64,000 nt of DNA, from assembly GCA_023015935.1 (NCBI GenBank), contig JALKAY010000001.1, forward strand, positions 620,874-684,873. The letters are read 5' to 3'. The position numbers and the translations under genes were made by a program. This DNA comes from Flavobacteriaceae bacterium F08102. GTDB lineage: Bacteria > Bacteroidota > Bacteroidia > Flavobacteriales > Flavobacteriaceae. The notes under the pieces were generated by a model. That model saw only the letters and a program-made list of their open reading frames with translations, was not told where the DNA came from and made no database searches. This document shows, piece after piece, positions 7,169 to 47,830 of this stretch; position 1 is the stretch's first letter; each line of letters opens with the position of its first letter.

Positions 7169-9421
7169 TTAGTTACTTTTAACGTTATCTCCTTCTTGTG
7201 CATAGAGTTCTAAAAGACTAAGGGTAGATTTTATCAAATCTTTGGTCTCTAATAAAATACTGAAGTAGAGGGTTGTGTTTTTTGGGCTTGATTCAACCGT
7301 TCTCGTGCGTTCTACTTGCTTTTGAATGTATTCGGTTACATCTTCTAATAAAAGTTGTTTTTCTTCGAGTATGGGGTTTAATTCGTCGAAAGTTCGAGCG
7401 TCAAAGATTTCACTGACTTTGTCAAACATATGTTGTAGCTTCAGGTCAATTTCTTTGAGTTCTTTCGCCTGATTTACTTTAAGTGCCTTGTGATTGTTAT
7501 TGATATGCTTATGACTGGCTTTGGCGATAAAGCTAGTAGACTGAGCAATGTCTTGTAAATCACCGATGACATCGATATAAAATTTACTTGCTCCCAGATA
7601 AGAATCGTCAAGTGCTTTGATAAAATAAAAGATATTATTTTGTAACCCTTCAATTTCGTCTTCAAGTTTTGTAACTTTATTTTTGGCTTTTTTAAGTGTT
7701 ACCAAATTTTTGGTAATTAATCCTTCAATAGCCATTTCATTGGTTTTGCTAACGCGTTTAAGCACTTTAGAAATATTATCTGCACTTTCGTTAATCACGC
7801 CGTGAATTGAATTTGATTCTGATTTTTCTAAGCGATCTTCCGCCTTGAGTTCTTTGGTTTTTTCACGGTGTTTAATGTAATTTCTAGCAATGATAAGTGC
7901 CGCTAAGAACAATAAAACAGCAATTACCGCAGGACCACCAAGATCAATTAATAAAGCCATTAAACCAGCAGTTACAAAGGCAATGATAGCCGTACCAAAC
8001 CATCCGCCAATAACATTGAGCACACCAGCCACCCGATAAACAGCACTTTCAGATCCCCAGGCTCTATCGGCTAAAGAAGTACCCATGGCTACCATAAAGG
8101 TTACATAGGTGGTCGATAACGGAAGTTTCATAGAGGTTGCGATTGAAATTAATACCCCTGCTACCAGTAAGTTTACTGAAGCTCTGACTTGGTCAAAAGC
8201 AGGAAGCTCATAGGTTTTGTCTTTAGGTAAATTAATGACGGGCTTTTCAAATTTTTTATTGATTTTAGCAACGGTTTTCGCCGGCAACATAGCATTAAAC
8301 CCATTACTTAATTTAGAAGATCCTCTTACTAACCATCGCGATAATAAATTAGGTTGAAACTTTTCGTGGCCATCACCTTGTCTGGCGAGCCCTATTTCTG
8401 TATCTGCAACGGTACGTGCTTTTTTAGAAAACCACAAGGTTAATACCATTATAGTACCAGCTATAAATAATAGCATTGGTTCTGTAGGTACTTTATTTCC
8501 AAGTACTTCCATAGAAAAATCGCTGGCAAGAGTTCCAGAGGATGCCCATGCTAAATAGGAGTGATAAGCAGCCATAGGAACACCGATAAAGTTTACGAGG
8601 TCATTACCAGCGAAAGCTAATGCCAAACCAAAAGTACCAATAGCTATAATAGGGATAAAAATATTTTTCTTTAAGACGGTCATATAGAATTGCGACAATA
8701 TGGTAAATACCACAAAACTAATGGCTAAAATGATCAATTCATTACCAGCGAACAGCCCAGAAAGTTGTTCAGAATACGGAGTACCTTTGAGGCCTTTTAG
8801 GAAAATAAAGTAAGAAATTGCCGTAAGAGACCCTCCTCCAAAAAGAGCGCCTAAATATTTAATTTTCTTTTCATAGTGAAAGGTGAAAATTAACCTGGAA
8901 AAATATTGGACAATGGCCCCAACACTAAAGGCGATGACTACAGAAAGTAAAATTCCGTAAATTATTTCGGTGGCCTTTTTAGTGTTTATGTATTTGGTTA
9001 AATCACTCATTGACTCTGTTTCAGAGGCACCAATTTTAATCAATGCAATAGCCACTGCAGCTCCTAAAAGTTCAAAAACGATTGAAACGGTTGTTGAGGT
9101 GGGCATTCCAACCGTATTAAAGAAATCTAACAAGAGAATATCGGTAATCATTACCGCCATGAAAATGATCATGATTTCATTAAAATAGAAATTGCCAGGA
9201 ACAAAGATTCCTTTTCTAGCAACTTCCATCATCCCACTAGAAAAAACGGCTCCTATAAAAATTCCTAAACTCGCAACAATCATTATGGTTTTGAAGGAAA
9301 TTGCCTTTGATCCTATTGCGGAATTTAAAAAGTTAACAGCATCATTACTCACACCAATTACCAAGTCAGCAATGGCCAAAACAGTAAGAGCAACAATCAT
9401 GATCAAGTAAATATTATCCAT
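7169..9421 (-). CDS. pit: Inorganic phosphate transporter, PiT family, fused to a PhoU/DUF47-like tail
   Basis: The 750-residue protein imports phosphate across the inner membrane with a coupling cation. The N-terminal half has the PiT signature GVSNDAVNF (about residue 23). The second repeat carries MKLPLSTTYVTF. Between them is a hydrophilic loop around residues 330-400 with many membrane helices on either side. From about residue 520 the sequence is soluble, helical and charged, like DUF47/PhoU-related proteins that are separate genes next to pit elsewhere. It lies 65 bp downstream of the porin gene with no terminator, suggesting a porin-pit operon. The fusion and gene order are seen; coupling ion and affinity are unknown. 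Confidence 0.92.
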   Translation of the reverse strand: MDNIYLIMIVALTVLAIADLVIGVSNDAVNFLNSAIGSKAISFKTIMIVASLGIFIGAVFSSGMMEVARKGIFVPGNFYFNEIMIIFMAVMITDILLLDFFNTVGMPTSTTVSIVFELLGAAVAIALIKIGASETESMSDLTKYINTKKATEIIYGILLSVVIAFSVGAIVQYFSRLIFTFHYEKKIKYLGALFGGGSLTAISYFIFLKGLKGTPYSEQLSGLFAGNELIILAISFVVFTILSQFYMTVLKKNIFIPIIAIGTFGLALAFAGNDLVNFIGVPMAAYHSYLAWASSGTLASDFSMEVLGNKVPTEPMLLFIAGTIMVLTLWFSKKARTVADTEIGLARQGDGHEKFQPNLLSRWLVRGSSKLSNGFNAMLPAKTVAKINKKFEKPVINLPKDKTYELPAFDQVRASVNLLVAGVLISIATSMKLPLSTTYVTFMVAMGTSLADRAWGSESAVYRVAGVLNVIGGWFGTAIIAFVTAGLMALLIDLGGPAVIAVLLFLAALIIARNYIKHREKTKELKAEDRLEKSESNSIHGVINESADNISKVLKRVSKTNEMAIEGLITKNLVTLKKAKNKVTKLEDEIEGLQNNIFYFIKALDDSYLGASKFYIDVIGDLQDIAQSTSFIAKASHKHINNNHKALKVNQAKELKEIDLKLQHMFDKVSEIFDARTFDELNPILEEKQLLLEDVTEYIQKQVERTRTVESSPKNTTLYFSILLETKDLIKSTLSLLELYAQEGDNVKSN

Positions 9422-9486: not shown

Positions 9487-10698
9487 TTAGAAATCTAGTT
9501 GAAAACGAAGCTGAAAGATGTTCGCTTTTCCAACGTGTTTTATATCGGCCCAGATATTGTTGAGCATTATTCTTGTGGCGGGATTAAGGTACCAATTAAC
9601 CCCCAAGGTAATGTTTTCCTGTTCACCACCTGTTAGATTTTTATCATTAAAATTGGCATAGGAATAACGCAAGGCAATTTCAATTGCCCCAGGTCCAGTA
9701 TTTTTGCCTGAAAAATTTCGATTTGGATGTATTCTATCAAAGCCTCCATAGGAACTTTTGTATCTTCGATATTCCCCTGTTAAAAAATAACTGAGTTGTC
9801 CATACCCTGTGTGAATTTGATACTTTTCTCGGGATTCGATATTCGCAATCATATATTCACCTTGTAGTGATGTGCTTCCCATAACTAAGGCTCCCTCGAT
9901 ATTAGAGAGTTGAACCCTATCTACAGCCTCAATTAAACCAGTATTGATGTATTTTTTTGTACTTAAATGAGCCTCTGGGCCAGCAGCGATTCGGTAATCT
10001 TCTGTAGAAGGTACTCGGTAGCTATGTGCAAATCCGAGGTGAAGTAAGCGACGACCATCTGCTTGATGTATAGGGAGTCCAGAAAAACGGCCTGTAAAAA
10101 CGTACCCTTTATTCACCGCAGTATTATTTCCATTCTTATCGCTATTTCTAAAGTAGCCTAATTGATAGGACAATCGATTGTTTATAAAATCATTAAACAC
10201 AAGCAGTCCATTATTACGAGTTTGTGAAAAATCATTTAAAAAAGATCGTTCCATAAACGTATTATACTTACTGCTAGTCAAACCACTTAAACGGATGGGT
10301 TCTTTGACATGGCCAATTCGGAGTGTGCCTACTCCTGGCAAATCTCGGATTCCAATGTAGGCATCTTTAAGTGAGATTAAACCCGCAACCATTTCGGCCT
10401 GTAATTTAAATTCTATATTTTGATAGAGGAGCCCTGAAAGGTATACTCTTCCTCTTCTGAATTCAGTCCCGGTTGTCGCGAGTAATGGTCCGTATATAGC
10501 ATCGGTGTCACTGTCCTGTGAAAAAAAGGCATGATCAATCATGATTCGCCCTCCGAACTTAAAGGAAAAATCACTGTTTTTATGCATGATTTTAAATCCG
10601 TTATCCCAAGTTAGGGTAAATGAAGGATCCTTTTCTTGAGAAAAGGCCAGCGTTGAACAGAGCATTAACAGCTTCCAAAGGAGAAAGCGACTAGCCAT
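9487..10698 (-). CDS. Phosphate-selective porin O/P family outer-membrane protein
   Basis: From ATG 10698 the product is 403 residues. It has a signal peptide ending in LAFSQ and then a beta-barrel with the porin O/P features: KFGGRIMIDHAFF at the barrel start, FRRGRVYLSG, FKLQAEM, and LRIGHVKEPIRL. It ends in FQLRFQLDF, a barrel-closing strand with terminal Phe. OprP/OprO porins pass phosphate or polyphosphate; specificity here is inferred from family and from the adjacent pit gene. An in-frame TTG at 10725 is less likely, because ATG 10698 gives the better signal peptide. The mRNA leader is unusually structured. Confidence 0.85.
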   Translation of the reverse strand: MASRFLLWKLLMLCSTLAFSQEKDPSFTLTWDNGFKIMHKNSDFSFKFGGRIMIDHAFFSQDSDTDAIYGPLLATTGTEFRRGRVYLSGLLYQNIEFKLQAEMVAGLISLKDAYIGIRDLPGVGTLRIGHVKEPIRLSGLTSSKYNTFMERSFLNDFSQTRNNGLLVFNDFINNRLSYQLGYFRNSDKNGNNTAVNKGYVFTGRFSGLPIHQADGRRLLHLGFAHSYRVPSTEDYRIAAGPEAHLSTKKYINTGLIEAVDRVQLSNIEGALVMGSTSLQGEYMIANIESREKYQIHTGYGQLSYFLTGEYRRYKSSYGGFDRIHPNRNFSGKNTGPGAIEIALRYSYANFNDKNLTGGEQENITLGVNWYLNPATRIMLNNIWADIKHVGKANIFQLRFQLDF

Positions 10699-10880
10699 AT
10701 GATATCTAAGTTTTTGTCGAGACAAAGAACCGATTCTAATGTTAACTAAAGGTTTCCTGAACGTTAGTATTTAATAAAATAATGAGGGGTATAATTGAAA
10801 GGCTACTTGGCCAAAGTAGCCTTTATTTCAAATAAAAGTCGACAAAAACTTAGCATAATTTGAAATAAGTAAGTCTAAGA
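10699..10880 (-). promoter_or_regulatory. Structured 5' leader of the porin-pit mRNA (candidate cis-regulatory RNA)
   Basis: On the minus-strand transcript three perfect complementary pairs are visible. Hairpin 1 pairs 10858-10868 with 10823-10833 (11 bp, 24-nt loop). Hairpin 2 pairs 10814-10824 with 10798-10808 (11 bp, 5-nt loop). A 15-nt segment of loop 1 (10839-10853) is perfectly complementary to 10706-10720, which ends 7 nt before the ATG. Loop pairing would form a pseudoknot, or alternatively replace hairpin 1, and cover the A-rich initiation region. No U tract follows hairpin 2, so translational control is more likely than termination. Known riboswitch classes were not recognised. The DNA structure is certain; the function is inferred. 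Confidence 0.5.
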
Positions 10881-10886
10881 CTGCGT

Positions 10887-10894
10887 CAAAAATA
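10887..10894 (-). promoter_or_regulatory. -7 promoter element for the porin-pit operon
   Basis: The minus strand reads TATTTTTG, a perfect TAnnTTTG. It predicts transcription from about 10881 and a leader of roughly 180 nt. No -33 TTG is visible, which would fit an activator-dependent promoter. Confidence 0.5.
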
Positions 10895-10897
10895 GCG

Positions 10898-11047
10898 GTT
10901 AACATGAGAAGTGGTGTAAAGAAAAGTTTAAGTTAACATCAATTTAGAAAGCTCCAATGTTAAGCTTTTGGCTATCCTTACAAGGTAATCATCTGATAAA
11001 TAGATGTTTGCGATTATAATGTTAAGTTAACGTTAACAAAAGGTTGT
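10898..11047. promoter_or_regulatory. Cluster of GTTAAC-type words between porin and MORN-like genes
   Basis: The words GTTAAC or GTTAAG occur at 10898, 10932, 10959, 11021, 11026 and 11032, and another copy lies in the leader at 10741. Copies at 11021 and 11032, plus a GTTGT at 11043, are exactly 11 bp apart and run into the -33 region of the downstream promoter. This arrangement resembles tandem PhoB/PhoP-type half-sites. The binding protein is inferred, not shown. Apart from these words and the porin leader the region has no gene. Confidence 0.4.
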
Positions 11048-11074
11048 GTAAATGTAAAATATTTGATATTTTTG
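11044..11074 (+). promoter_or_regulatory. Promoter of the MORN-like gene
   Basis: TTG at 11044-11046, a 20-bp spacer, then TATTTTTG at 11067-11074: a complete Bacteroidota -33/-7 promoter, 36 bp before the ATG. Confidence 0.7.
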
Positions 11075-11110
11075 ATATGTTAGGATGTATAATTATTTAA
11101 AAAAAGCACC

Positions 11111-11461
11111 ATGAAAAAAATTGCCATTATTGCCTTATTATTTATTACCAGCATGAGTTTTGCTCAAACCATAAGTCCTGTATTTGAAGTAAAAGGAGAT
11201 CTAGTTAAAGTCACTTACTACCATGATAATGGAAAGATAGAACAAGAAGGGTATTTTAAGGATAATAAATTACAAGGAACTTGGAACTATTACAATCAAG
11301 AAGGAGAGAAGATAGCCATGGGAAATTACGATTCAGGAAGAAAAGTAGGAAAATGGTTTTTCTGGTCCAACGGTACGTTAAAAGAAGTAACTTTTACTGA
11401 CCAAAAGATAGCAAGCATCGATGAGTGGAAAGAAAAAACGGTCGTTGTTTCGAACGAATAG
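11111..11461 (+). CDS. Small secreted MORN/YwqK-like repeat protein
   Basis: A 116-residue protein with a clear signal peptide (MKKIAIIALL, cleavage after SFAQ). Three short repeats follow of the type YxxNGKIxxEGYFKDNKLQGTW, then YDSGRKVGKWFFW, which are MORN/YwqK-like beta-hairpin repeats. Close Bacteroidota relatives are often mislabelled as nicotinic acid mononucleotide adenylyltransferase; no nucleotide-binding motif is present. The role is unknown, perhaps surface or periplasmic binding. It has its own promoter with 11-bp-spaced GTTAA words just upstream and is followed by a terminator. Position inside the phosphate block suggests shared regulation. Confidence 0.8.
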   Translation: MKKIAIIALLFITSMSFAQTISPVFEVKGDLVKVTYYHDNGKIEQEGYFKDNKLQGTWNYYNQEGEKIAMGNYDSGRKVGKWFFWSNGTLKEVTFTDQKIASIDEWKEKTVVVSNE

Positions 11462-11526: not shown

Positions 11527-13491
11527 TTAGTTTCCTGAACCAAACCATGACCAAGTTGAAATATCTACTTGGGTACCCGTATTGTACGGGTTTGTTGTTG
11601 TTGCAGCTTCACCATCTATAATCACATTGCCTAATGGTCCATCATCTTTCATATCTACATTGGTGGAATATCCTTCTAGGTATAAGTTTGTAAAGGTAGC
11701 GCCAGATTGTTTTTTAAATTGTAAGGCGATACCTCCCGTAGTAGAAATAGCGGTGAAGTTGATTAGTTTTGGATTTGCATTGTCTTTATCAGCTTCTACT
11801 GCCGTTGAGAAACCTTCAATGGTGTGTTTTACATACGTATTGGTTATCGTTCCACTCCAACCTTCTGTCCAATCTACGGCATCATCTTGATTGTTTTCTA
11901 GGTATATATTTTTGGCAGAAACAGTTCCTCCAAAAAATTCGATTCCGTCATCTGCTCCATTAATAACAGCAATGTTTTCAAGGACAGTGCCTGAACCTAC
12001 TGCATAAAGAGAAACACCGTTATATTGTGATTCTGTTGAAATCTGTGCACCCGTTCCTTTGATTACTAAGTATTTAATAGACCCAGAATTGTCGGTATCA
12101 TTTTGGCCTCCATAGATAAAGCCACCTACTTCTGCTTCTGCGTCGTTACCGGCAGTTGTTTTGGCATCACCACAAATGGTAAGCCCACCCCAGTCACCAG
12201 GTTTGGCGTTTCCAGAACTCATTATTACGGGCTCATCGGCAGTTCCTTGGATATCTATTTGACCACCTTTAAGAACTGCTAAATAAACATCTGTTCCTTT
12301 GGCATCAGCAATGATATTTGTTCCTTTTTCAATCGTTAATTTTGCACCAGACTTTACAATATATGATCCAGTAAGGTTGTAAGTGATTCCAGAAGATAAG
12401 GTTTTGTTACCTGTTAACTCTCCAACGAGCTCTTCTACCGGAACAGTTTGACCATTTATAAAATTCCAAGAGGTGATTTCAACTTCGCTTCCTTCATTAT
12501 AGTCTTTAGACTCGTCGGCTGCTTGACCATCGATGATTACATTGGCTAAAGGACCATTGTCTACCATGTCGATATTTTTGTCAAATCCGTCAAGGTATAG
12601 GTTGGTAATCGTTGCACCAGATAATTTTTTGAATTGTAAAGCGGTACCACCAACAATAGATTTAGCTGTTAAGTTGATTAATTTTGGATTTGCATTATCT
12701 TTATCAGCCTCAACAACTGTAGAAAAACCAGGTTCTGTTAGATAGATATATGAATTTTCAACGGTACCGCTCCATCCTTCTGTCCAATCAATAGCATCAT
12801 CTTGTAAATTTTCTAAATAGAGATTTTTTATAGAAACAGATCCTCCAAAAAATTCAACACCATCATCAGCTCCGTCAAACACGGCAATATTTTCAACTGT
12901 GGTTCCAGAACCTACTGCATAAAAAGAAATTCCGTTGTATTGAGATTCCGTAGAGATTTGAGCACCGGTTCCTTTAATTACCAAATTGGTAATAGATCCA
13001 GAACTATCAGTATCGTCATCACCACCATATTTGAATCCACCAACCTCAGCTTCAGCGTCTACTCCAGCAGTGGTTGTTGCCTTGCCACAAAGAGTAAGTC
13101 CCCCCCAGTCTCCAGGAGCTGCATTTGTAGAGGTCATTAATACAGGATTGTTGTTTGTTCCGTTAATATTAACTTTTCCACCTTTTAGTACGGCAAAATA
13201 TACATCAACACCTTTGGCATCTGCAGTGATCGTTGTTCCTGCTGGGATGGTTATTTCAGCACCATCTTCAACGATAAATGAACCTGTTAATTGATAAGAA
13301 TTAGATGTCAAGGTAATTTTCCCATCATCTTTTGTTAAGGTACCATTTAATATGCCTTTGTTAATGTTTTCAATAGTCTGACTTGCAGGATTTGGATCAA
13401 TAGGATCAATTCCGCTTTCACTACTACAACTCGTGAGTAGGCTTCCAGTGAAGATGAGTGCACTGAATAACTTGAACATTTTGTTTTTCAT
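11527..13491 (-). CDS. Beta-helix surface lipoprotein with tandemly duplicated domain
   Basis: The 654-residue protein has a lipoprotein signal (LLTSC, lipidated C22) and a short acidic linker. Two near-identical domains of about 280 residues follow (about 66-344 and 371-649). Each has short repeating strands like a right-handed parallel beta-helix, with shared motifs GDWGGLT, GTGAQISTESQYNG, DGADDG(V/I)EFFGG and QDDA(I/V)DWTEGWSG. The many Asp/Glu could bind calcium. It follows the TonB-dependent receptor gene by 34 bp on the same strand, so it may be that receptor's surface partner, in the place a SusD lipoprotein would hold. No enzyme active site was recognised. Confidence 0.75.
   Translation of the reverse strand: MKNKMFKLFSALIFTGSLLTSCSSESGIDPIDPNPASQTIENINKGILNGTLTKDDGKITLTSNSYQLTGSFIVEDGAEITIPAGTTITADAKGVDVYFAVLKGGKVNINGTNNNPVLMTSTNAAPGDWGGLTLCGKATTTAGVDAEAEVGGFKYGGDDDTDSSGSITNLVIKGTGAQISTESQYNGISFYAVGSGTTVENIAVFDGADDGVEFFGGSVSIKNLYLENLQDDAIDWTEGWSGTVENSYIYLTEPGFSTVVEADKDNANPKLINLTAKSIVGGTALQFKKLSGATITNLYLDGFDKNIDMVDNGPLANVIIDGQAADESKDYNEGSEVEITSWNFINGQTVPVEELVGELTGNKTLSSGITYNLTGSYIVKSGAKLTIEKGTNIIADAKGTDVYLAVLKGGQIDIQGTADEPVIMSSGNAKPGDWGGLTICGDAKTTAGNDAEAEVGGFIYGGQNDTDNSGSIKYLVIKGTGAQISTESQYNGVSLYAVGSGTVLENIAVINGADDGIEFFGGTVSAKNIYLENNQDDAVDWTEGWSGTITNTYVKHTIEGFSTAVEADKDNANPKLINFTAISTTGGIALQFKKQSGATFTNLYLEGYSTNVDMKDDGPLGNVIIDGEAATTTNPYNTGTQVDISTWSWFGSGN
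11548..13296 (-). repeat. Intragenic tandem duplication (two units of about 835 bp)
   Basis: Unit 1 covers about 12460-13296 and unit 2 about 11548-12381. The encoded domains align without large gaps and share long identical stretches, for example EADKDNANPKLIN in both. This is a direct, in-frame gene-internal duplication separated by a linker of about 26 residues. Confidence 0.85.
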
Positions 13492-13525
13492 AATTTTTTG
13501 ATTAGATAATTAGTAATGTTTGTGG

Positions 13526-16267
13526 TTAAAATGTATAATTTATTCCAAGGTTTAGGGTCATTCCCTTTTTGTATAGCAATACGTTCTCGGTAGTTTCTAC
13601 TTCGGTATTAAAGTTTTTGACTTTTTGAGTTTGTCTAATGTTTGGGTTTAATAGGTTTTTCCCAGAAACTTTAAAAGAGAAGTGATCGTTTAGTTCTTTA
13701 GTAATTTGTAAATCTACACCTACGTATCCTTTTTCAATTATTTCATCATTGTAAAAGGTCGCGCTATTGGTTTTATCTTCTGGACCTCCTAAAGAGTAAA
13801 TTTTATCAGAAGCATAGGCAGCAGAAAGCGATGCCATAAATGAATATGGTTTGTTATTTGAATAGGTTAAACTTGTGTTTGTGATAAAATCAGAAGCTCC
13901 TTGTAAACCTGACTCAGTTTTATTTGCATATTGAAAATTTTCTAATAAATCTTGTGTGTGACGCATCAGGGCTGCGTTTAAGACTAAGTTTAATTGGTCT
14001 CCTTCGCCATCTTCATTCTGTTTAATCAAATCAACGCGAGATTCAAACTCTACACCAAATACATTTGCTTGTTCACCCGTATTGAAATAGGAAAAATTTC
14101 CAGAGGAACCTCGAGTAATTGCAGCATTAATAGGGTCTTGAATGTTTTTGTAAAAAACGCCTAATGATAATACTTGTCGGTTACTTGGAAAGTATTCGTA
14201 TTTGAGGTCAAGATTGTAGTTTGTAGAAGCAATTAAATCAACGTTACCAGAAGTTACACGACCAGTAGGGTCATTGTATTCAAAGGGAGCAATTTCTTTA
14301 AATTCAGGTAGGGTTATTGTTTTAGAAAAAGATACGCGAAGATTTGCTTTCTCGGTAGCTGCATAGCGGATGTTTAATGCAGGAGAAAAGTTATCGTATG
14401 CAGAGTATAGACTCCCTGTTCTTCCTACATAATTTGGCACATCCCATTGAGGGAGATCTAAATTAATTTGCTCATATCGCACTCCAAGACTCGCGCTAAA
14501 TTTGTTCACTGTAAATTCAAAAGCTGCAAATGGAGCAATAATGTCCAATGACCCCATATAGGATGCCGTTAATGATTTTAAAGTACTAGACGGGAATTGA
14601 CCAGGGGTGAAAATCTCACTTAAATTATCAATCGAATTTGTGGTAAGGTTTCGTGCTCTTGCACCAATGAATTGGGATGCTAAGGTTCTTTCACGATGCC
14701 TGTAGTTAATTCCGAAATTGATTGATGAACTATTGTCATTGTCTTCATTTTGTGAGATTGTCCAATGATCTTTTAAGAAGGCATTGTATTCTTCATCTTG
14801 AATGTGTTGATTTGATTTGCGCTGTTGAAAATCCCCAACATTTGAATATTCAATTTTTCCAGGTGCTAGCGTGTTTACTTCATTGCGAATACGGTTTGGC
14901 TCTGTTGAAAGTACAAAGTTATATCCCAGTCCCCACGTGAAAACATTCTTTTCTGACGGCTTATAGGATCCCAAGAATTGATTTACGGCTAATTGGGTAG
15001 ATTTTGTGTTTTGATCGCGTATGAATGCTTGAAATTCTGAAGGATCTTGATCAAATACATATCCTTCTAGGTTTCTTCCTGCTTCATATACTTCATCATT
15101 GCTCTTATTGATTAATAATGTATTCCAGGATAGTTTAACTTTATCTGAGGCAGAAAGAGACAGGTTTAAAAGTGCGGTTGTATTGGTTTTTGAGTTAAAG
15201 GTTTCTGCATCTGTGAATTCTTTATTTAGCACATTTGATCTAAACTGTCTAAATGTTCCTTGTGTGTGCTCAAAGGTATTCGCATGAGAAGCTCTTACAA
15301 AAACACCAAGATTTCTACCGAATACAGGAATTTTAGCATTTAGGCTAAAAGAACCATTAAAATTTAGAGGTGTACTTTGGGTTTCTGTGTCCCAACTTTG
15401 CTGGGTAATAGCTGCTTGCGTAGTCATAGGTCTTGCATAGAACCCAAACGATAAATCATTGACGTTTTGTGATCTTTTAAACACGTCTTGATCAATGGCA
15501 TTGGTGTTAGTTCCAAATCCAACGCCTAAGCTAAGGTTTTTACCTTTTGCTTCTTTTGAGACCACATTGATACTCCCTGAAGCCATATCGGCGTAGTTGT
15601 CTACATTAAAAACTTTAGTTACAGCAATATTTTGGATGACTCCTGTGGTGAATAACTTTAAATCGATATTCTTTTTTTCAACGTCATCTGAAGGAATAGG
15701 CAAGCCGTTCATCGTTGTTGTTAAATAACGATCCCCTAAACCACGAATAAATACATCTCCAGAGCCTTCACTTTGCGTTATTCCAGAAATTTTTGTGGTT
15801 GCTACCGCTGCATCAGATACCCCCAGATTGGATAGTTCTTCTGCTCCTATGGCAGTTTGAATGGATACGGCCTTTTTTTGATCGGTTAATAATGCCGCAA
15901 CACTTTCCTTTTGAACGGTGCTTTTTACGATGACTTCCTTTAAGGTCATTCCTTCGGCAGCTTCAAGAATTACATTCTCTAAGGTGGTTACTTCTCCAGG
16001 TTTTACAATAATGTTGGGGACTTCAATTTTTTGATATCCTACATAGCTAAACACCATGGTATAGGTGCCTGGATCGGCATTAAAAGAGTAAATTCCGTCT
16101 AAGTTCGTGGTGGTTCCTGTTTGCGAATCTTTAATAAATACATTGGCAAATGGAAGTGGTTCATTGTTCATTTCTTTGTCTATTACCTTTCCTTGGATGA
16201 TTCCTTTGTCTTGGGCTATGGCCAAATAGGTAATTAATAAGAATACTAGCGTAATCGTTTTTTTCAT
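13526..16267 (-). CDS. TonB-dependent outer-membrane receptor with carboxypeptidase-regulatory-like domain
   Basis: From ATG 16267 the product is 913 residues. A signal peptide ending in LAIAQ is followed by a CarboxypepD_reg-like beta-sandwich (about 22-110; GKVIDKEMNNEPLPFANV). The plug domain contains DVFIRGLGDRYLTTTMNGLPIP, and a 22-stranded barrel ends in NLGINYTF. It is not a typical SusC: the SusC plug signatures are missing, and its neighbour is a beta-helix lipoprotein instead of SusD. The longer frame starting at TTG 16297 overlaps the likely promoter and is not used. The substrate is unknown; the nearby phosphate porin and pit suggest a phosphorus compound. Confidence 0.9.
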   Translation of the reverse strand: MKKTITLVFLLITYLAIAQDKGIIQGKVIDKEMNNEPLPFANVFIKDSQTGTTTNLDGIYSFNADPGTYTMVFSYVGYQKIEVPNIIVKPGEVTTLENVILEAAEGMTLKEVIVKSTVQKESVAALLTDQKKAVSIQTAIGAEELSNLGVSDAAVATTKISGITQSEGSGDVFIRGLGDRYLTTTMNGLPIPSDDVEKKNIDLKLFTTGVIQNIAVTKVFNVDNYADMASGSINVVSKEAKGKNLSLGVGFGTNTNAIDQDVFKRSQNVNDLSFGFYARPMTTQAAITQQSWDTETQSTPLNFNGSFSLNAKIPVFGRNLGVFVRASHANTFEHTQGTFRQFRSNVLNKEFTDAETFNSKTNTTALLNLSLSASDKVKLSWNTLLINKSNDEVYEAGRNLEGYVFDQDPSEFQAFIRDQNTKSTQLAVNQFLGSYKPSEKNVFTWGLGYNFVLSTEPNRIRNEVNTLAPGKIEYSNVGDFQQRKSNQHIQDEEYNAFLKDHWTISQNEDNDNSSSINFGINYRHRERTLASQFIGARARNLTTNSIDNLSEIFTPGQFPSSTLKSLTASYMGSLDIIAPFAAFEFTVNKFSASLGVRYEQINLDLPQWDVPNYVGRTGSLYSAYDNFSPALNIRYAATEKANLRVSFSKTITLPEFKEIAPFEYNDPTGRVTSGNVDLIASTNYNLDLKYEYFPSNRQVLSLGVFYKNIQDPINAAITRGSSGNFSYFNTGEQANVFGVEFESRVDLIKQNEDGEGDQLNLVLNAALMRHTQDLLENFQYANKTESGLQGASDFITNTSLTYSNNKPYSFMASLSAAYASDKIYSLGGPEDKTNSATFYNDEIIEKGYVGVDLQITKELNDHFSFKVSGKNLLNPNIRQTQKVKNFNTEVETTENVLLYKKGMTLNLGINYTF

Positions 16268-16294
16268 GTTGTTTTTATATACTATTTCACGTGG

Positions 16295-16361
16295 CAAAGA
16301 AATGGCTCGAGTGTAAAGATTGGGTTAACTGGGGGTTAAAACATCATCAACCTTAGGTTAG
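16295..16361 (-). promoter_or_regulatory. Promoter region of the TonB receptor with 11-bp-spaced TTAACC repeats
   Basis: The minus strand has a near-consensus -7 element TTTCTTTG (16295-16302). About 20-37 bp upstream come two TTAACC words whose plus-strand GGTTAA copies start at 16323 and 16334, exactly 11 bp apart. A related CTAACC (GGTTAG at 16356) lies two 11-bp steps further. This is the same word and spacing as upstream of the MORN-like gene. Regulation by a PhoB-like activator is inferred. Confidence 0.4.
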
Positions 16362-47480: not shown

Positions 47481-47750
47481 TTATTTTCTTAAATTTAATT
47501 CTTTAACAATTGCACGATATCTAACGATGTCTGTTTTTATTAAATAATCAAGTAAGTTTCTTCTTTTTCCTACGAGTTTTACTAATGAGCGCTCCGTATT
47601 AAAATCTTTACGATTTTTTTTTAGGTGTTCTGTTAAGTGATTAATTCGGTAGGTGAATAAGGCTATCTGTCCTTCAGAACTGCCTGTGTCTGTTGCTGAT
47701 TTTCCATATTTTTTGAAAATCTCAGCTTTTTTTTCTGCTGTTAAATACAT
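47481..47750 (-). CDS. rpsO: 30S ribosomal protein S15
   Basis: S15 is an early-binding protein of the 30S platform, contacting helices 20-22 of 16S rRNA. The 89-residue product has the standard length and the conserved segments DTGSSEGQIALFTYRINHLTEHL, KDFNTERSLVKLVGKRRNLLDYL and YRAIVKELNLRK. It has a good promoter 51-80 bp upstream and its own terminator before pnp. Confidence 0.98.
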   Translation of the reverse strand: MYLTAEKKAEIFKKYGKSATDTGSSEGQIALFTYRINHLTEHLKKNRKDFNTERSLVKLVGKRRNLLDYLIKTDIVRYRAIVKELNLRK

Positions 47751-47801
47751 GCTAACATTAAATTTTTAATCATTGTTATGTATCGAAATATTTCGAGCGG
47801 C

Positions 47802-47830
47802 AAATATAAAACTATTATTTTGAATGACAA
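47802..47830 (-). promoter_or_regulatory. Promoter of rpsO
   Basis: On the minus strand TTG (47828-47830), an 18-bp spacer and TATATTTG (47802-47809), a complete -33/-7 match. The further 200 bp up to 48037 holds no gene that I can recognise. Confidence 0.65.

Follow-up and report, generated by a model that had tools for sequence, protein, structure and literature searches.

A conserved candidate small-RNA gene lying in tandem upstream of its probable porin mRNA target in Flavobacteriaceae

Comparative analysis of a 64,000-nt stretch of DNA from Flavobacteriaceae bacterium F08102 (hereafter the window) found a conserved arrangement upstream of a porin gene, which we consider likely to comprise two tandem transcription units on the minus strand, a small-RNA gene followed by the gene of its own target, the porin mRNA. 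Judged from the sequences, the small RNA would most likely block porin translation, and the unit would probably constitute a switch on phosphate uptake that has not been described before.

All elements noted in the original prediction for this locus, namely a −7 element, two 11-bp hairpins and a 15-nt complementarity between a hairpin loop and the porin start region, are present as described, and their coordinates are listed in Table 1. On the minus strand, the −7 element TATTTTTG, which was aligned with TATTTTTG/TACTTTTG/TACTTTTA in G014, G015 and G008, is followed by the two hairpins, overlapping by two bases, and then by the complementary site, with 7 nt between its end and the porin ATG at 10698. 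The loop and the target site form the arms of a perfect inverted repeat lying 118 nt apart. For the 223-nt strand a folding energy of −48.5 kcal/mol was obtained, compared with −35.7 ± 4.05 kcal/mol for shuffled sequences (1 of 200 shuffles as good), and the 15-bp long-range helix is part of the lowest-energy structure of the contiguous strand.

Table 1. Features of the candidate small-RNA and porin locus in the window.
Feature	Position	Strand	Evidence or remark
Small-RNA −7 element TATTTTTG	10887..10894	−	Predicted promoter; matches TANNTTTG in the accessible text of PMC6847099
Predicted small RNA, ~88 nt	10795..10882	−	Predicted ends; +1 put 5 nt past the −7 element
GTCTTAGAC, 5′ mini-hairpin or palindrome	10873..10881	−	Perfect 10-nt palindrome in 58/103 loci (10% of shuffles)
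Hairpin 1 with antisense loop	10823..10868	−	Arms 10868-10858/10833-10823, 11/11 pairs, 24-nt loop; both-sided base-pair changes in homologues
Antisense loop segment CTAAGTTTTTGTCGA	10839..10853	−	Core GTTTTT?[GA]TC in 112/116 loci
Hairpin 2, putative terminator stem GGCTACTT..AAGTAGCC	10798..10824	−	Arms 10824-10814/10808-10798, 11/11 pairs, 5-nt loop; both-sided changes in all 10 model pairs
Porin-promoter 11-bp-repeat box GAAACCTTTAGTTAACATT (Pho-box-like)	10738..10756	−	24.6 bits, top site of the window; among the training boxes of its own scoring model
Porin-promoter −7 element GTTCTTTG	10723..10730	−	Identical octamer in 52/104 homologous promoters, GTTATTTG in 32
Target site TCGACAAAAACTTAG, predicted mRNA +1 = G10718	10706..10720	−	15/15 complementary to 10853-10839; native pairing beats permuted
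Porin gene	9487..10698	−	Pfam Porin_O_P, 4.7e-47
PHO4/PiT-type phosphate transporter, gene after porin	7169..9421	−	2e-27
Second 11-bp-repeat box TTAACGTTAACTTAACATT	11018..11036	−	21.6 bits, second-best site of the window
Divergent MORN_2-like gene	11111..11461	+	26.6 bits, below the Pfam cut-off of 29.6

The same layout recurs in other genera with compensatory changes of the kind that the original prediction had proposed to look for in relatives, and this is the decisive indication that it did not arise by chance. To quantify the pairing, duplex energies between the loop region and the UTR were calculated for 103 unique pairs and compared with those after permutation of the partners. The native mean was −25.7 kcal/mol, against −21.8 ± 0.26 for permuted partners and −10.6 for shuffled targets, and none of 2000 permutations was as good, a statistic that ignores relatedness among genomes. 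The difference was larger for the 30 pairs lacking ATTAGTTTTTGTC in the loop (−26.9 vs −20.0 ± 0.65 kcal/mol permuted, 0/2000 as good). On average 23% of partners, the native one included, did as well as the native partner, and the single variants at L113, L193 and L183 had many equally good partners. The compensated changes concern length (G008), GG/CC (L090), A/T within the core (TTTTAGTC with the target GACTAAAA, L120 and L143), and AAG/CTT (window, L123 and L138); beyond the loci carrying the core, two further ones have a covarying variant of it. The longest exact pairing run has a median of 13 nt and reaches at least 12 nt at 74 of 100 adjacent sites, or at 91 when G-U pairs are allowed, 17 sites needing G-U for that; at four sites it is just 6–8 nt. 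In some species extra pairing is found beside the start codon (CGATTTT with AAAATCG, GATTAT with ATAATC). Thus, across the compared genomes, the complementarity between the loop and the start region is maintained by compensatory change. The changed core TTTTAGTC and target GACTAAAA mark a small-genome subgroup (L120, L143 and L246) with one member in another family, and the gene following the unit at L120 is a Porin_O_P gene.

Covariation was also found within the predicted RNA itself. In an alignment of 100 sequences (98 distinct), which had been fitted to its structure, 90.3% of the cells pair and the covariation score is 0.495, compared with 0.199 for shuffled sequences. In the terminator stem 95.8% of cells are paired and every pair shows both-sided changes; in hairpin 1 the outermost pairs are poorly conserved (72.9%). 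An independent MAFFT/RNAalifold alignment retained the terminator only, plus a small apical helix with ribosum scoring. Hairpin 2 looks like an intrinsic terminator, and a T run follows it in most of the homologues printed; in the window its U tail is weak (TTTCAATTAT), and a consensus terminator scan did not return the window hairpin. Close to the predicted 5′ end of the small RNA lies a palindrome of variable sequence (GTCTTAAGAC, GTATTTAAATAC, GTCTATAGAC and GTGTTTAAACAC among its forms), which may be a mini-hairpin, a dimerisation site or an operator. A looser test for a 5′ hairpin was passed by 93 of 103 loci, a weak result in that 45% of shuffles passed too; the perfect-palindrome test (Table 1) discriminates better.

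Between the terminator and the target site, a conserved box with the consensus gaAACATTAAgTTAACATT was found in 101 homologous promoters, about one tenth of which fit it poorly, followed by a −7 element that reads GTTCTTTG or GTTATTTG in 84 of 104 promoters. The spacing from TTTG to GACA is 4 nt in 84 and 5 nt in 18 of the 104. Because this spacing equals the 4–5 nt from the −7 element to the start at probable Flavobacterium johnsoniae promoters, as given in the accessible text of PMC6847099, the porin mRNA probably starts at the G of GACAAAAAC. Base −1 is nevertheless C in 83 of 104 promoters, though a start at the G would leave it untranscribed. The first two bases of the porin −7 element are GT in 94 promoters and TA in none counted, whereas the consensus has TA, a deviation that could fit an activator-dependent promoter. 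The start codon lies 18–24 nt from the first base of the target site in 90 of 102 cases, and 4–10 nt separate it from the end of the longest pairing run in 78 of 102.

The same type of box appears to be present in the small-RNA promoter and the porin promoter. Regions upstream of the small RNA scored a median of 5.7 bits for the porin box, compared with −3.9 bits for shuffled sequences, and 67% of them exceeded the shuffled 95th percentile (n = 103). The window holds ten box sites of at least 9 bits, against 2.7 per shuffle. The tandem 11-bp repeats at the promoter, the period known from the Escherichia coli Pho box, together with the linked phosphate genes, suggest that the box may be a Pho box. 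At loci such as L175, L173 and L132, the small-RNA −7 element is preceded by three tandem 11-bp repeats (TTAATATTAAA TTAATATTTGC GTTACATTACA at L175), which lie farther out than the box of the porin promoter by about one helical turn. The second box of the window lies between the small RNA and the divergent MORN_2-like gene, a homologue of which occupies this divergent upstream position in 22 of 34 loci. The adjoining region 11527–16297 encodes a TonB-dependent receptor and a 654-aa protein that contains internal repeats and lacks a Pfam match; repeat proteins that look similar by eye adjoin the small RNA at L072 and L047.

To evaluate the distribution of the unit, a covariance model (R2) was constructed on five sequences from a single genus, including the window copy, which it matches at 10793–10874. 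At E ≤ 0.01 it matched 178 of 397 sampled family genomes in 128 of 237 genera, an inexact count given that model E-values are rough and weak matches partly false (2 of 110); at least one real unit, with a true porin target and small RNA, was missed (G019). Among 110 matches examined (30 returned loci and a further 80 fetched from among the others), 108 were genuine, and L178 and L182 are unrelated terminators. A complement lies adjacent, in tandem on one strand, in 100 of the 110, four of which (L104, L120, L143 and L155) were added by hand after the script pattern had missed them. With four genus loci added, a long reading frame follows 102 of 104 adjacent pairs; 99 of these frames match either of two reference porins (blastp, 1e-3), and Porin_O_P was found in nine of ten proteins scanned, the exception being L118. 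The unit, usually present in one copy per genome in other genera, stands at the head of porin genes.

Eight genomes, however, carry a genuine RNA with no adjacent complement. In five of them the complement precedes a porin elsewhere, at 2.8 kb (G373), at 3.1 kb (G094, G117 and G317) or on another contig, so that the assembly does not give the true distance (G253). A sixth separated case is G322, where a porin UTR carries GACAAAAACTAATC and the loop-bearing hairpin with its terminator lies about 4 kb off. The small-RNA gene is thus separable from its target. For the remaining three genuine RNAs (G123, G030 and G176), no target was found. After position 1569 of L047 (G322), the solitary small RNA is followed by a porin-type promoter and a short broken reading frame; the porin about 4 kb off, whose 5′ end matches, is intact.

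Within the genus, eight leaders of porin orthologues were compared, the window counted. The same layout was found in G008 only, with a hairpin bearing the loop TTAGTTTTGTCA, then GGCTACTTTGGCCAAGTAGCC and then TGACAAAACTAA before the ATG, its loop having one T fewer and its target one A fewer than in the window; six leaders have no RNA there. The full unit precedes another porin in G014 (Pfam, Porin_O_P), G015 and G016 (both by blastp), and a short-pattern search of 17 genus genomes found the RNA on another contig in G006. G004 has a weak match with R2 (8.1e-4) and none with a further model, R3. By protein, relatives of the porin were found in 10 of 17 genus genomes at 1e-20 and in 6 of 378 family genomes at 1e-110; a contig scan gave 12 relatives, and the one leader inspected among them (L029) has no such site. 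The exact sequence of hairpin 2 found only its own genome among 397 family genomes, and sequence alone is therefore the wrong probe.

With R3, matches at E ≤ 0.001 were obtained in 18 of 296 genomes of the order and 5 of 198 of the phylum. All nine matches outside the family were inspected, and only that of G668, from another family (E 1.8e-8), is genuine; the other eight (G430, G486, G584, G479, G561, G482, G422 and G832) resemble unrelated terminators. Of the in-family matches, G218 and G647 are genuine, and G657 appears unrelated on inspection.

The gene context points to phosphate uptake. In G322 the order is porin-pstS-C-A-B-phoU-PiT, and in G063 the small RNA is followed by the target site before a short reading frame and then by a 335-aa porin-like gene and pstS-C-A-B-phoU-PiT; pstC was assigned by its NCBIfam model and the other pst, phoU and PiT names by reading of the translations. 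The pstC cut-off was passed by three of eight genomes (G063, G322 and G093), the own genome falling below it. In G123 and G030 the RNA stands ahead of PiT, and no porin lies between them.

Further sites resembling the target were observed. The start region of rplM (ribosomal protein L13, identified by reading of the sequence) carries GACAAAAACTAA just before the start codon at L041, L046, L049, L050, L051 and L052 (G001, G146, G004, G005, G006 and G000), and this is also complementary to the small-RNA loop. G146 gave no match to the small-RNA model, nor did G013, which carries the same 16-mer variant, so the site may be an independent leader motif or a second target of the small RNA. When extra TTTGN{4,5}GACAAAAAYT sites in RNA-bearing genomes were fetched, eight of nine lay inside frames 100 or more codons long and probably arose by chance. 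The ninth, a second TTTG-GACAAAAACT site at L230 (G093), outside long frames and 36 nt before a 188-aa frame, may be either chance or a second target. Among 20 genomes with no model match, which included G019, sites inside long frames were found in G041 (1/3), G045 (1/2), G048 and G051.

Based on these observations, the following mechanism is proposed. A first transcript would start near 10882, may fold a 5′ mini-hairpin, would display a UUAGUUUUUGUC-type sequence in the loop of its hairpin, and would end at the intrinsic terminator near 10800. The second, the porin mRNA, would be driven by its own box and −7 promoter from about 10718, and its first 12–15 nt (GACAAAAACU...) would be complementary to that loop. 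The small RNA could then pair in trans with the 5′ end of the mRNA, in some species on up to the start codon, and would thereby keep the 30S subunit off a start codon that has no Shine-Dalgarno (SD) sequence, which would yield less porin and possibly less of the operon product. As had been anticipated for one of two alternative folds, the conserved pairing would cover the initiation region. According to the accessible text of PMC6847099, initiation in this phylum relies on unstructured, A-rich upstream sequence instead of an SD, and structure near the start codon accompanies weaker initiation in F. johnsoniae. A PhoB-like regulator might control both promoters, and the related boxes suggest that the RNA and its target may be made together, possibly as in a damping loop. 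Some observations speak against this mechanism: a shared type of box would express RNA and target together, which is unexpected of a simple repressor; three genuine RNAs are those for which no target was found; and six of the eight genus leaders have no RNA beside the porin.

The opposite outcome, that the small RNA activates or stabilises the porin mRNA by shielding its 5′ end from decay with no repression, is possible but unlikely. It would suit pairing that begins at the predicted +1 and mostly ends short of the start codon, and the related boxes would suit co-induction; yet pairing resumes beside the start codon in several species, and initiation should be impeded by a duplex lying within about 25 nt of the start.

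We put forward only as a speculation, and a doubtful one, that the unit acts in two modes. Read-through into the porin is plausible in the window given the weak U tail of its terminator; terminated transcripts would then serve as a small RNA in trans and read-through transcripts as a long porin leader pairing in cis. Termination, together with a phosphate regulator of the two promoters, would set the choice, and across Flavobacteriaceae both the porin and the linked pst-phoU-PiT genes would be under the control of the unit.

The original prediction had proposed a single structured leader, whose loop would engage the start region downstream in a long-range pseudoknot or an alternative fold. The conserved pairing with its compensatory changes stood up to the comparison, whereas a leader of this kind, with either a pseudoknot or two exchanging folds, was not supported and now appears rather improbable. 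The tandem placement of the parts on one strand in most matches agrees with it, as do the long-range helix in the minimum-energy fold and the weak terminator tail of the window. Against it, the hairpin is terminator-like with T-rich tails in most homologues printed, a separate conserved promoter sits between hairpin 2 and the target, and the RNA gene is detached in several genomes, by about 3 kb or by a contig boundary. Moreover, from sequence alone the porin mRNA is predicted to start downstream of 10800, an arrangement that had itself been named as incompatible with a leader.

That both arms are DNA operators for a regulator looping the promoter, the RNA being incidental, is very improbable. 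Perfect inverted-repeat arms, the conserved base −1 and 11-bp repeat boxes in both units would fit such a role, but in aligned loci one arm is a hairpin loop ahead of a terminator stem, the two stems show covariation of the RNA type, the length change in the loop of G008 is matched in its target, and the RNA anatomy is kept in solitary copies. Finally, the suggestion of a small mobile inverted-repeat element (MITE), prompted by the perfect 15-bp ends, can be discarded: in the whole 3.3-Mb own genome the loop 15-mer occurs exactly only at the loop and the target site, with no one-mismatch copy, and is thus not a scattered repeat; the flanks show no target duplication, as already noted in the original prediction, and other genera usually hold one copy per genome, ahead of porin genes.

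The candidate RNA of the tandem unit, our preferred reading, matched no Rfam family. No Rfam 15 family reached its gathering cut-off in the RNA region of the window or of 15 homologous loci, the best sub-threshold match within 10650–11120 being mir-3015 (18.3 bits, cut-off 59); the whole window gave one Rfam match, outside the small-RNA region. An S15-Flavobacteria ribosomal leader (RF03161, 52.2 bits) is located at 47748–47808 on the minus strand. The loop 15-mer, in three spellings, was absent from the open-access literature searched, and no such RNA appeared in the titles and abstract openings among the matches listed. To our knowledge, only a small number of regulatory RNAs described from Flavobacteriaceae have a conserved target; the family is abundant at sea, where growth is often limited by phosphate. 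If the proposed reading is true, the unit would represent a small-RNA family that is widespread and has a single clear target, located at phosphate-uptake genes. Its same-strand tandem arrangement, evolving through compensating changes, would be unusual, and it would offer a test case for antisense RNA control of translation starts in a phylum that makes no use of Shine-Dalgarno sequences.

Porin-repressing antisense small RNAs are known from enterobacteria, where MicF, MicA and MicC depend on Hfq, use short imperfect seeds and are encoded away from or divergent to their targets. The candidate RNA resembles them as a short, putatively terminated RNA that would pair with an outer-membrane porin mRNA in its start region. 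Unlike them, it is encoded directly upstream of its target on the same strand, mostly pairs over 12–15 nt at the predicted mRNA 5′ end, and occurs in a family lacking SD-led initiation. In the CopA/CopT plasmid systems the antisense RNA is encoded on the strand opposite its target; there, as here, perfect complementarity is displayed in a hairpin loop, and loop contact would start the pairing, whereas the present RNA would be the product of a separate same-strand gene whose complementarity is upheld by compensating changes. S15-Flavobacteria and other ribosomal leaders in Rfam likewise place structured RNA beside a flavobacterial start codon, but they are cis leaders, and none reaches its cut-off here. 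Rfp18 of Flavobacterium psychrophilum (PMC9723704) is also a conserved structured flavobacterial small RNA with predicted base-pairing. Rfp18 is reported to affect metalloprotease mRNAs, with pairing predicted through its third stem-loop, and the word porin is absent from the main text (PMC9723704); by this description, rather than by sequence, it is set apart from the candidate RNA that precedes the flavobacterial porin genes.
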